32,870 bases of DNA from Acidobacteriota bacterium (GTDB lineage Bacteria > Acidobacteriota > Thermoanaerobaculia > Thermoanaerobaculales > Sulfomarinibacteraceae), in the NCBI GenBank assembly GCA_013152895.1, contig JAADFN010000026.1:4173-37042 (forward strand), in the 5' to 3' direction. The notes beneath the pieces were generated by a model. That model had not been told where the DNA came from. It worked only from the letters and a program-made list of their open reading frames with translations, and did not search any database. Shown piece by piece: positions 27,022 to 31,197 of the stretch. The translations under genes were made by a program, and so were the position numbers. Position 1 is the first letter of the stretch; the number at the start of each line of letters is the position of its first letter.

Positions 27022-27175
27022 TGCATCGGACGCCGTCGCGACGGGCGGGAGGACGCGGCGTGCCTCCGGCGCTGGCGCAGATGGACGGTGAATAGTGCTG
27101 GCGAGATCATCCATACCGTGGCCGGAATCCGGAAGCGGCGCCGCCACGCCCCCCAGACGGCCGGAGGGCGCCAGG

Positions 27176-29848
27176 GTGCTCATCCGCCGGATCGCCTTCA
27201 TGCTCGTCACGGCCTTTGCCCTCGTGGTCGCAGCCGTCTCGATGGCCCGGACCATCCGGTCGTTCCACGTGCTGGACTTCCAGGCGACCTGGACCGCGGA
27301 CGCCCTGAGGCTCGACGTGGTACCGCGCGATTCCTCCGCCCGCAGGGCGGGGCTTCAGCCCGGCGATCGCATCGTTTCCATCGATGGAACGCCCGTTGCT
27401 GAGCTGACGAACCCCGGCCAGAAGCTCACATGGGGGAACGTGCACCGGCTCGAGATCCTCCGGCCCGGCACCGGTACGATCACCGTTGCGTTTCACCCGC
27501 CGCCACCGGAGGTCGATCCCGTCTACCTGGCTCGTTCGGTTGTAGCGATCGCCGGCATCATCTGTGCGCTGCTCGCCGTGCTCGGAACGGCGCGGGACGA
27601 GGCGGCCACCATGCTGCTCCTGGCGCTGGCGGCCCTCGTTCTCGCCACGATTCCGCATCGGACCGCTGCGTCCAGCGTGCTGTTCGCGATGCTCCACCGG
27701 GCATCCGGGGCGGCTCTTTCCTTTCTCCTCGTCCGTTTCTTCGCCATTTTTCCCGAGCAACGGAAAGTCCCCCTGTTCTGGGATCTGGCGACCGGAGCCG
27801 CAATGGGGCTTGCGGCGGCTACTGCGGTCATTCCCGGCACGGCCACGCTGTGGCCATCGGTCGCCATCGGATTGCGGGCCGCGTTCGTTGCGGCCCTGGT
27901 GGCAGGATCGGTCCTGCAGATCCGGAAATGGCGTGCCTCCGCGCGGGTCGCCAGGATCCGCCGGCAGATCGAGTGGTCCGCCCTCGGCATGTTCACCGGC
28001 CTGTTCCCCTACGGAGCGCTGGTCCTGTTGCCACGCTGGCTCGGCATCGGCTTCGAGCCGTTTTCCTGGCTCGCCGTCGTGCCCGTGATGGCGGTTCCAA
28101 TCGGTTTTCTTGCCGCGTTGAAGGAGTACCGCCTGTGGGACCTCGAACCGATAACCCGGGACACGCTCTCTGCAATACTCGTGGTCACCCTCGGCGGCCT
28201 CGTCTTTGCTGCGCTCAACCGGCTGCTCTTCACGTCGGTGGCCCAGGCCGGTCCCCTGCGGAGCCTGTTGGCCTTCGCCACCGGCGTCATCCTCGTGATG
28301 ATCCTGCACCCCGTGCGCCAACAGGTCGGTACGTTCCTCGACCAGTGGCTGTACCACGGGCGTCCCGCTCCCCGGCGGCTGATCACGAACGCGACGCGCG
28401 AGCTCGCCCAGACCACCGATCCGGTGCAGCTTCTCAAGCGCCTTTCGAGCGTCTTGCACGATGACCTCGAGCTCGAGCTCGTCGCCACGTACCAGCGATT
28501 CCGGGGCAACGACTTCAGGCGCGTCACGCCCGCCGTGGGGGACCTCCCGGCGTCGATTCCCGGCGCCATCGTCGGCACGGCCTACCCGGCCACCGCGGAG
28601 CAACCGCTGCGCGACGAGGGGTTCGCCCTCAGGATCCCTCTGGAGCGCGCCGGCGTCGTCCAGGGACTGCTCTACCTTGGCCTGAGACGGGGCATCTTCC
28701 CGCTGGGCCGGGAGGTTCGCGAGGTGGTGGCGGCGCTCGCCGCCCAGGCGGCCCTTGGGCTGGAGAGCGCCGGGTTGATGGAGGACCTCCGGCAGCAGGC
28801 CGAGGAATACCGGATCCTTCACGCCAACACCCAGCGAATCATCGAGTCCTCGGCGGCAGGCATCCTCGTCTGTGACGCACGGGGCCGCATCCTGTCCGCG
28901 AACACCCAGGCCGCGGGGGTGTTTTCCATCGCAGCCTCGGAGCTGGTCGGACGCGAATTGGGTACCCTCGTCGAGCTCCCCAAGCAGTGGGCGCCCCAGC
29001 TCCCCGTCCACGTGCTGAACGCCGGTGGGCAGACCTTGACCGAGCCTCCGCGATGGATCGTGATGGCCGTCTCTGCGCTGGAGCTGGAGAGTGGCCGCTT
29101 CGACGGACGCGTCGTCGTCCTCCAGGATGTGACGGAGCTGCGGGAGCTCGAGAACCGCGTGCGGGAGCAGGAGCGCCTGGCCTCGCTCGGGCGCCTGGCG
29201 TCCGGGCTCGCCCACGAGATCAACACGCCGTTGACCGGGATCGCCTCCTTCGCCCAGCTCCTCGGCGAGATGACGCCGCGCGAGGATCCGCGCGCCGGGA
29301 TCGTCGCCAAGCTCGTGGACCAGAGTTTCAGGGTCTCGAGAATCGTTGCCAACCTCCACGAGGCGATGCGGGGGAGCGGAGGTCAACCCGCGCTCCTCGA
29401 CCTGGGCCAAGCGGTTCGCCGGGCAGCCGAGGACGCCGCACGCTCGCTGGGGGCGGAGGGTAGAATTCGCATCGCCGATCCTGCCCAGCCCGTGCTCGTT
29501 CATGCGTTCTCCGGCGCCGTGGAGCTGGCGGTCGGCAATCTCGTCCGCAACGCGATCGAGGCGTCGCCCCCCGCCGCCAAGGTCGAGATCACGATCGGCG
29601 GCGATGACGAAGCCGCGTGGATCCAGGTGCGCGATCATGGTCCCGGCGTTCCGCACGAGCTTCGGGAAAAGATCTTCGAGCCGTTTTTTACCACGCGCTC
29701 AGCCACGGGAGGAACCGGCCTTGGGCTTGCCATCACGCGTGATATGATCAGCCGCCAGGGAGGTGAAGTACGGCTCGAGCCAGCTCCACCACGAGGAACC
29801 CGGGCGGTGATCCGGCTGCCACGGTCGAGGAGCCCGCACGTATCCTGA
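27176..29848 (+). CDS. Multi-domain membrane sensor histidine kinase (PDZ, TM, GAF-like, PAS, HisKA, HATPase)
   Basis: An 890-residue sensor. After a first membrane helix (about 5-23) comes an extracytoplasmic PDZ-like domain (about 40-108; SSARRAGLQPGDRIVSIDGTPV). A block of about eight membrane helices follows (about 120-400), then a weak GAF-like region (about 400-545), a PAS domain (about 565-645; SSAAGILVCDARGRILSANTQA), and the kinase core. The phosphoacceptor is H680 in GLAHEINTPLTG. The ATPase shows the N-box GNLVRNAIEAS, then DHGPGVP, FEPFFTT and GGTGLGLAI. GTG 27176 has GGAGG upstream and is preferred over GTG 27095. It overlaps the response-regulator frame, so the pair is coupled. 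The signal is unknown. Confidence 0.92.
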   Translation: MLIRRIAFMLVTAFALVVAAVSMARTIRSFHVLDFQATWTADALRLDVVPRDSSARRAGLQPGDRIVSIDGTPVAELTNPGQKLTWGNVHRLEILRPGTGTITVAFHPPPPEVDPVYLARSVVAIAGIICALLAVLGTARDEAATMLLLALAALVLATIPHRTAASSVLFAMLHRASGAALSFLLVRFFAIFPEQRKVPLFWDLATGAAMGLAAATAVIPGTATLWPSVAIGLRAAFVAALVAGSVLQIRKWRASARVARIRRQIEWSALGMFTGLFPYGALVLLPRWLGIGFEPFSWLAVVPVMAVPIGFLAALKEYRLWDLEPITRDTLSAILVVTLGGLVFAALNRLLFTSVAQAGPLRSLLAFATGVILVMILHPVRQQVGTFLDQWLYHGRPAPRRLITNATRELAQTTDPVQLLKRLSSVLHDDLELELVATYQRFRGNDFRRVTPAVGDLPASIPGAIVGTAYPATAEQPLRDEGFALRIPLERAGVVQGLLYLGLRRGIFPLGREVREVVAALAAQAALGLESAGLMEDLRQQAEEYRILHANTQRIIESSAAGILVCDARGRILSANTQAAGVFSIAASELVGRELGTLVELPKQWAPQLPVHVLNAGGQTLTEPPRWIVMAVSALELESGRFDGRVVVLQDVTELRELENRVREQERLASLGRLASGLAHEINTPLTGIASFAQLLGEMTPREDPRAGIVAKLVDQSFRVSRIVANLHEAMRGSGGQPALLDLGQAVRRAAEDAARSLGAEGRIRIADPAQPVLVHAFSGAVELAVGNLVRNAIEASPPAAKVEITIGGDDEAAWIQVRDHGPGVPHELREKIFEPFFTTRSATGGTGLGLAITRDMISRQGGEVRLEPAPPRGTRAVIRLPRSRSPHVS

Positions 29849-31197
29849 TCATCGACGATGAGCCGGTCCTCCAGGATGTGTTGGTCAATCTCCTCGCCAG
29901 GGACGGCATGCGGCCTCACAGCGCGATGACAGCGGCCGAGGGGCTTCGAGCGCTCAACCAGGGAGATTTCGACGCCGTGCTCCTCGACCTGATGCTGCCG
30001 GATGAGCCTGGGCTCGACCTGCTCCCCAAGTTGCACTCGCGCGATCCCAATCTGCCGGTCGTGGTCATCACCGCGTACTCCTCCATCGAATCCGCTATCG
30101 AGGCCATGCGGCGCGGAGCGTTCCACTACGTTCCCAAGCCGTTCAAGAACGAAGAGGTTCTCCACATCGTCCACAGGGCCGTCGAGCAACGGAGGCTCCT
30201 GGAGGAAAACCTTCGGCTGAAAAACCAGCTCAGGGGCCTGGAGAACCTCGTGGGTGCCAGCCGGCCCATGCAGGAGATTCTCGACCTGATTCACCGTGCC
30301 GCCCCGGCCCGCTCGAACATCATTGTCACCGGCGAGCCCGGGACCGGCAAGGAGCTCGTGGCCCGGACCATCCACCGTCTCAGCTCCCGGCGATCCGGGC
30401 CGTTCCTTTCGGCCCACACCGGCATCGCCTCTCCCGAGGTCGTCGAGGCCAGTCTCTTCGGCCAGGGCGCAGCCGGCAATGGCGCGGATGGGCATGCGGG
30501 ATCCGGCCTGTTCGAGGCCGCCGCGGGGGGCACCCTGTTCCTCGACGAGGTCGGGACGCTGGCGCCGATGACCCAGGCCAAGCTGCTCCAGGTGATCCAG
30601 GAGCAGACGATCGAGCGACCCGGCGGCGGTGAGCCCGTCCAGGTCGATGTCCGGGTGATTGCGGCGTCCCGCCTCGATCTGCTCCGGGAGGTGCGCGAGG
30701 GACGGTTCCGGGAAGATCTCTACTACCGCCTCGGGGTGATCGTCATTCCCCTCCCGCCGCTTCGGGACCGCCGCGAGGACATTCCGATGCTGGCGCATCA
30801 CTTCTTGAGGCGGTACGCCCGGGAGAACGGGAGGCGCGTCGAGGCGTTCACTCCGCGGGCGCTCAACGCGATGATCCAGTACGCGTGGCCCGGGAACATC
30901 CGGGAGCTCGAAAACGCCGTGGAACGGTGCGTCGTGCTGAGCCGCACCGACGTCATCGATCTCCCGTTGCTTCCGGAGGCGGTACGCACCGGCGGGCGGT
31001 GGACCCAAGACGAAGCGAAGCTGCCCCCCGATGGGATCGATTTCAGGGAAGTCGTGGCCGACTACAAGAGGAACCTGATCCTCAAGGCGTTGCACACGTC
31101 CAACGGCGTCCAGCGTCAGGCCGCCAGACTGCTCAGGCTCAACCCGACGACCCTCAACGAGATGATCCGCAGGCTCGATATCACCTCCGAAGAGTAG
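29845..31197 (+). CDS. NtrC-type response regulator lacking the GAFTGA loop
   Basis: About 450 residues: receiver (1-115), AAA+ domain (about 130-365) and Fis-type helix-turn-helix (about 400-445). The receiver needs IIDDEP to be translated (acidic D4, D5; phosphoacceptor D48 in LLDLMLP; K in VPKPF). No ATG, GTG or TTG exists in frame between the stop at 29764 and GTG 29878, so I place the start at CTG 29845, which overlaps the kinase stop as CTGA. This is an inference. The AAA+ part has Walker A GEPGTGKE, Walker B GGTLFLDEV and the R-finger segment FREDLYYRL. At the loop that should be GAFTGA it reads AGNGAD (30472-30489), so contact with sigma54 is doubtful. HTH: NGVQRQAARLLRLNPTTLNEMIRRL. 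Confidence 0.85.
   Translation: MIIDDEPVLQDVLVNLLARDGMRPHSAMTAAEGLRALNQGDFDAVLLDLMLPDEPGLDLLPKLHSRDPNLPVVVITAYSSIESAIEAMRRGAFHYVPKPFKNEEVLHIVHRAVEQRRLLEENLRLKNQLRGLENLVGASRPMQEILDLIHRAAPARSNIIVTGEPGTGKELVARTIHRLSSRRSGPFLSAHTGIASPEVVEASLFGQGAAGNGADGHAGSGLFEAAAGGTLFLDEVGTLAPMTQAKLLQVIQEQTIERPGGGEPVQVDVRVIAASRLDLLREVREGRFREDLYYRLGVIVIPLPPLRDRREDIPMLAHHFLRRYARENGRRVEAFTPRALNAMIQYAWPGNIRELENAVERCVVLSRTDVIDLPLLPEAVRTGGRWTQDEAKLPPDGIDFREVVADYKRNLILKALHTSNGVQRQAARLLRLNPTTLNEMIRRLDITSEE

Follow-up and report, generated by a model that had tools for sequence, protein, structure and literature searches.

An NtrC-type response regulator encoded in the window (the stretch of 32,870 nucleotides analysed here) has lost the GAFTGA motif from its L1 loop, keeps its phosphorylation, ATPase and DNA-binding residues and is under purifying selection. 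On comparative grounds, the protein is probably a former sigma54 activator that has given up its contact with sigma54, binds DNA under the control of phosphorylation and acts at sigma70-type promoters. The original prediction of a sigma54-independent AAA+ transcription factor is thereby supported by comparison, and three findings speak against a decayed or misassembled copy: a sister species shares the loss, the dN/dS ratio is low, and the receiver and helix-turn-helix (HTH) domains are conserved.

The window derives from a Thermoanaerobaculales (Acidobacteriota) MAG of 2.99 Mb that is 97% complete and whose named relatives place it in the class Thermoanaerobaculia. The 5' end of the regulator gene overlaps the 3' end of a sensor histidine kinase gene (Table 1). 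The regulator translation, P0001, spans 29830-31194 on the forward strand and is followed by a stop codon at 31195-31197, and the open frame reaches upstream to about 29770. The kinase is intact, with a HisKA H-box, LASGLAHEINTPLTG, and a GTGLGL box that were both read directly, and the same type of PDZ/membrane kinase was paired with the regulator in all 17 loci inspected across the class. The other gene neighbours differ among loci (deoC, polA and an xth-like gene in the window, others elsewhere), so the neighbourhood was uninformative about the function of the regulator.

Four Pfam domains in the regulator scored above cut-off (Response_reg, 92 bits; Sigma54_activat, 168; AAA_lid_14, 99; HTH_8, 26), which is the group 1 bEBP architecture of receiver, AAA+ (PF00158), lid and Fis-type HTH. 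The protein fell below all NCBIfam equivalog cut-offs listed, namely those of NtrC (TIGR01818), AtoC, NtrX, ZraR and other named regulators; its best scores were 373.8 bits for ntrC (cut-off 558.6, TIGR01818), 367.8 for AtoC (714) and 355.8 for NtrX (600). Residues D9, D10, D53, T81, K103, K174, D239, E240, R294, R300 and R358 are invariant in 50 of 50 orthologues, including the window copy, and the arginine of WPGNIREL is present. The window copy has the ATPase set of EBP54 proteins: the Walker A lysine, the Walker B Asp-Glu pair, the arginine fingers and the sensor II arginine. Walker A, Walker B and the Fis domain are intact, as had been claimed from the DNA alone.

Table 1. Features of the kinase-regulator locus, in positions of the window.
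Feature	Position	Strand	Basis	Remarks
Sensor histidine kinase gene	27095..29848	+	Pfam	PDZ, multiple membrane segments, PAS, HisKA, HATPase_c
CTGA, kinase TGA stop overlapping CTG codon of regulator frame	29845..29848	+		proposed non-canonical start (inferred)
NtrC-type response regulator gene (REC - AAA+ - Fis-type HTH)	about 29845..31197	+	ORF, Pfam	
Receiver domain	29839..30168	+	Pfam Response_reg, 92 bits	D9/D10 acidic pair, phospho-acceptor D53, T81 and K103 intact
Walker A GEPGTGKE, residues 168-175	30331..30354	+	orthologue alignment	Walker A lysine kept
L1 loop QGAAGNGADGHAGS	30463..30504	+	alignment of 50 orthologues	GAFTGA expected at 30472-30489
Walker B LFLDE, residues 235-240 region	30532..30549	+	orthologue alignment	intact
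L2 region QVIQEQTIERPG	30589..30624	+		class consensus RVIQEREFxRVG; R254Q, E260T; altered along with L1
Sensor I segment AASR	30661..30672	+	orthologue comparison	class consensus AATN; N281R
FREDLYYR	30706..30729	+		conserved R294 and R300 at arginine-finger positions, both intact
Fis-type HTH (HTH_8)	31066..31173	+	Pfam	zero class-conserved residues lost

The regulator frame (29830-31197, forward strand) reads EASLFG-QGAAGNGADGHAGS-GLFEAAAGGTLFLDEVG around the loop, and AGNGAD (P0001 residues 215-220, window positions 30472-30489) occupies the place of GAFTGA, within the interval given in the original prediction, so that L1 holds neither this motif nor a tolerated variant. The spacing from LFG to GLFE is 14 residues, the same as in GAFTGA orthologues (LFG-HVKGAFTGAVASRR-GLFE). 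Replacement and spacing, both noted in the original prediction, were evident in the frame and in the alignment of 50 orthologues. Nearly every genome among the 60 relatives searched had one clearly best match (44-85% identity), and the next paralogues, at about 45% identity or less, lay well below. G[A/S]FTGA was found in 46 of the 50 copies located across the class. The exceptions were the window copy; a same-genus sister species with an 85% identical regulator and the non-GAFTGA loop GPAQGGAAEPAG; G007, whose loop is four residues shorter and reads QVEEPGGG; and G005, which has GAFPGA. A fifth altered copy, G009, was retrieved from the edge of a contig and has GAFPGA as well. All five altered genomes fall within the window's family: two genera have GAFPGA, another has lost the four residues, and in the window's own genus the loop is scrambled. 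Since the loop is altered in the same-genus genome too and the motif is near-invariant across the class, the change is more than chance. The search for orthologues with an altered loop thus uncovered a sister species that shares the loss of GAFTGA, and for this reason the window copy is no misassembly.

A close orthologue with a normal loop had been named in advance as the mark of a decayed or misassembled copy. Same-family orthologues with GAFTGA do exist, at 58-61% identity; they make the loop loss derived, but the window copy is neither misassembled nor a dying allele. A second, GAFTGA-bearing copy of the regulator was sought elsewhere in the genome and none was found, the next paralogue being about 40% identical. 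Two further segments had been described as altered. One of these, sensor I, is changed as claimed, and the sister species has the change as well. The histidine of the other, HTGIA, is unlinked to the loop loss: VHTSAIP or similar stands at this place in nearly all same-family GAFTGA orthologues and NTGS in the sister family, and the histidine is therefore an older change.

We examined whether sigma54 itself persists in the host. RpoN was present in 18 of 20 genomes of the family. In the MAG, rpoN (L145, G000:C172:22000-27500) is divided between two frames, each holding a well-conserved half of the gene, which meet within a conserved stretch. The same-genus genome (L165) and other family members have the gene intact, and the apparent frameshift in the MAG is most likely a sequencing or assembly error. 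Matches to the -24/-12 consensus were commoner than matches to a reversed control (5 versus 1 in the MAG, 5 versus 0 in the sister), and the host cell appears still to use sigma54. With RpoN intact in the sister and the family and the consensus in excess of its control, we rejected a genomic loss of sigma54 as the cause of the loop change. Twelve of the 13 strong PF00158 matches in the genome are other proteins. Most of the loops read in these are GAFTGA-like, and the deviant ones among them are one GAFTDA, one GAATGV and one GVATGV, the last two in L141 and L142 (G000:C47, C9). Because the other regulators are mostly GAFTGA-like and RpoN is present in the family, the loop change is specific to the window regulator. 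No convincing -24/-12 promoter was found near the operon in the window or in related loci; this includes the GAFTGA-bearing relatives, so the promoter evidence is neutral.

Deviant regulators were also seen outside this orthologous group. A separate Acidobacteriota group of NtrC-type proteins, mainly from Bryobacterales, consistently has GAFTDA for GAFTGA (L106, L109, L110, L114, L115, L117, L119, L121, L124-L127, L129-L131). The NtrC-type loops GALPGS, DASQGN, GASPRA and GAFPGA occur in Myxococcales (L107, L120, L128) and Deltaproteobacteria (L116, L123). Finally, L144 (G000:C59:4000-6706) joins an FHA-like N-terminal part and a Fis-like C-terminus to a strongly degenerate AAA+ domain without a normal Walker A or GAFTGA, and is possibly another sigma54-independent relative.

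The altered copies cluster in the best trees of the regulator (loop removed), of RpoN alone and of the concatenation, with weak support (78/40, 73/79, 59/88). Within the orthologous group, S170P in Walker A occurs in altered copies only, although it is unscorable in G009, the contig of which starts part-way through the gene. GEPGTGKE is frequent in more distant regulators, so S170P alone is not diagnostic. As shared derived features, S170P and the missing start codon described below add weight to the grouping. The simplest history would be one loss, probably by a change of Thr to Pro, followed by lineage-specific drift. Each loop change may instead have arisen independently, but the altered copies fall together in all three best trees, weakly supported as these are. 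A Thr-to-Pro step to GAFPGA agrees with the bias reported by Francke et al., who found Pro to be the preferred change at that position among about 110 deviant proteins (PMC3162934). For the GAFPGA-bearing Desulfovibrio protein DVU2960, function is in doubt, since a NifA lost its activity through an identical change (PMC4641369); the GAFPGA copies of our group might keep weak activity.

The altered copies also differ at their 5' ends. All 15 GAFTGA-bearing family members have an ATG or GTG 6 nt before P0001 residue 1. By contrast, an ATG, GTG or TTG compatible with a complete receiver was absent from 4 of 4 altered copies with a readable 5' end (the window; L002, L003, L009); G009 was left out of the scoring, as its contig starts within the gene. 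No canonical start follows before residue 17 (in G007, before residue 49), and a protein begun at such a start would lack the acidic pair of the receiver. Besides isoleucine codons and distant ACG codons, the sole candidate shared by the altered copies is the CTG at residue 6, and we infer that the regulator initiates at this codon, which overlaps the kinase stop. Coupled gene pairs typically show four-base overlaps of this type (PMC10666635), and re-initiation from non-canonical starts is possible in engineered tests (PMC2268962). Inspection of the kinase-regulator overlap by eye revealed no obvious slippery heptamer. We tentatively entertain the idea that the loss of sigma54 contact and a re-wiring of translation went together, through either the CTG start (CTGA re-initiation) or a frameshift fusion of kinase and regulator. 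The outcome would be a stoichiometrically coupled sigma54-independent system, with the steps GAFTGA, GAFPGA, deletion and scrambling preserved in living species.

We counted residue losses at 150 positions that are near-invariant in GAFTGA copies (71 in AAA+, 25 in the lid, 36 in the receiver, 6 in the linker and 12 in the HTH). The window copy has lost 17 of the 71 AAA+ positions and 2 of the 25 in the lid, and none in the receiver (0/36), linker (0/6) or HTH (0/12); its losses in AAA+ exceed those elsewhere (17/71 versus 2/79, Fisher p = 1e-4). Pooled losses in 15 GAFTGA controls from the family, with 0-7 losses each, had no domain bias (14/1065 in AAA+ versus 19/1185 elsewhere, p = 0.6). 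The other altered copies were similar to the window copy in their bias towards AAA+, G007 more mildly (p = 0.05). Most of the lost residues belong to L1 with the helix beside it, to L2 or to sensor I (Asn281). For the two species of the window's genus, the whole gene gave a dN/dS of 0.08, AAA+ outside L1 gave 0.087 and L1 itself 0.34, against 0-0.09 for L1 in control pairs; L1 is a short region, and synonymous sites are partly saturated. Relaxed constraint is, by these ratios, limited to L1.

These data bear on whether the gene is decaying or non-functional, either as a pseudogene in the making or as an assembly artefact. The loss of a canonical start codon from all four altered copies whose 5' end could be read would fit such a reading, and the apparent rpoN frameshift means that the sequence of this MAG is not error-free. 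However, the reading frame is intact in the altered lineages, the sister genome agrees, selection on the whole frame is strongly purifying, the kinase is intact, and the receiver and HTH of the window copy have lost no class-conserved residue. We therefore rejected assembly error and decay, which we regard as highly improbable.

AlphaFold models of the window copy and a GAFTGA orthologue, built on the same 39 rows, differed in the same loops. In L1 (residues 213-223) pLDDT was <50 in the window copy versus about 86 in the orthologue, and in L2 (residues 261-270) the mean was 74 versus 93. The predicted overall fold was kept and matches NtrX, NtrC1, ZraR, FleQ and PspF. Could the regulator still be a sigma54 activator, with a loop that contacts sigma54 in another way or with activation taking place within the ring? 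The ATPase residues listed above are all kept, and deviant motifs, GVATGV among them, are presumed functional in Desulfovibrio (PMC4641369). In Caulobacter, mutations in the HTH of NtrC have an effect on sigma54 genes, and NtrC mutants that lack GAFTGA can, under unusual circumstances, still increase sigma54-dependent transcripts (PMC12421884). We nevertheless consider this unlikely: the window's genus retains neither the F nor the T of the motif, L2 and sensor I are changed too, and the loops of the two sister species drift under relaxed constraint and have reached no new consensus. The literature also agrees with the earlier argument that disrupting GAFTGA ends sigma54 activation and that GAFTGA-less relatives act at sigma70 promoters (PMC3162934, PMC10274813).

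The regulator could alternatively serve as a modulator subunit, either joining a GAFTGA regulator in mixed rings or competing with it for sites, and so antagonise or tune a sigma54 promoter in a phosphorylation-dependent way. Conservation of the assembly and DNA-binding surfaces, with change mainly in the sigma54-facing loops, and the many paralogues in the genome would suit this role, but none of these paralogues is close, and we hold it to be quite improbable.

Our preferred reading is a regulator that has left sigma54 for sigma70-type promoters. Its ancestor, paired as response regulator with a PDZ/membrane kinase, would have been an ordinary sigma54 activator with GAFTGA. Contact with sigma54 would have been lost in the common ancestor of the five sampled species of one Thermoanaerobaculales family, with Thr-to-Pro (GAFPGA) probably the first step. 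The pore loops L1 and L2 would then have drifted, leading to the deletion in one genus and to a fully scrambled loop in that of the window. The kinase would still phosphorylate the receiver, the conserved HTH would still bind DNA, and the regulator would still bind or hydrolyse ATP for assembly; sigma54-RNA polymerase would no longer be remodelled by it. Sigma70-type promoters would most likely be controlled by contact or occlusion, and the outcome could be activation, repression or both. Phosphorylation-controlled binding at such promoters is the mode described for NtrC of Caulobacter and R. capsulatus (PMC10274813) and is likely here too.

With the motif lost from an otherwise conserved bEBP under selection, the regulator is, judged by its sequence, a new lineage of the already known GAFTGA-less kind. 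The GAFTGA-less bEBPs that we found described are mainly from Proteobacteria, and our literature search found no paper joining GAFTGA, enhancer binding protein and Acidobacteria. What this group adds is a graded natural series coincident with start-codon loss: a stepwise exit from sigma54 can be traced within one conserved, kinase-paired orthologous group, from GAFTGA through GAFPGA to deletion and scrambling. Such a series allows one to test which step ends sigma54 activity and whether the ATPase is kept for another purpose. The annotation of such proteins as "sigma54-dependent" is probably wrong.

TyrR and DhaR are not known to be two-component regulators. Like HupR, VpsR and YplP, they are relatives of sigma54 activators with a defective GAFTGA, and TyrR, DhaR and HupR have been reported to be sigma70-dependent (PMC3162934). 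The window regulator, in contrast to this set, keeps the phospho-acceptor and the full ATPase set, and VpsR is a much weaker sequence match to it. The nearest solved sequences and folds over the receiver and AAA+ domains are Aquifex aeolicus NtrC1 (1ny5, 4l4u) and Brucella NtrX (5m7n-5m7p); however, NtrC1 keeps GAFTGA in the aligned loop and has been described as activating with sigma54, and the window regulator scores under the NtrX cut-off. Caulobacter NtrC (PMC10274813) shares the REC-AAA+-HTH architecture, a cognate kinase, the absence of GAFTGA, the retention of Walker A and B and the presence of other sigma54-dependent regulators in the genome. It differs in having an eight-residue deletion, whereas the window copy has a full-length scrambled loop and the four-residue deletion occurs in genus g7 only; furthermore, the window copy lies under the NtrC equivalog cut-off, and a nitrogen role is not indicated. 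Rhodobacter capsulatus NtrC likewise has the NtrC architecture without the motif, although its loop deletion is larger and its activity is known where that of the window regulator is deduced; as cited in PMC10274813, it activates with sigma70 and requires phosphorylation and ATP binding.
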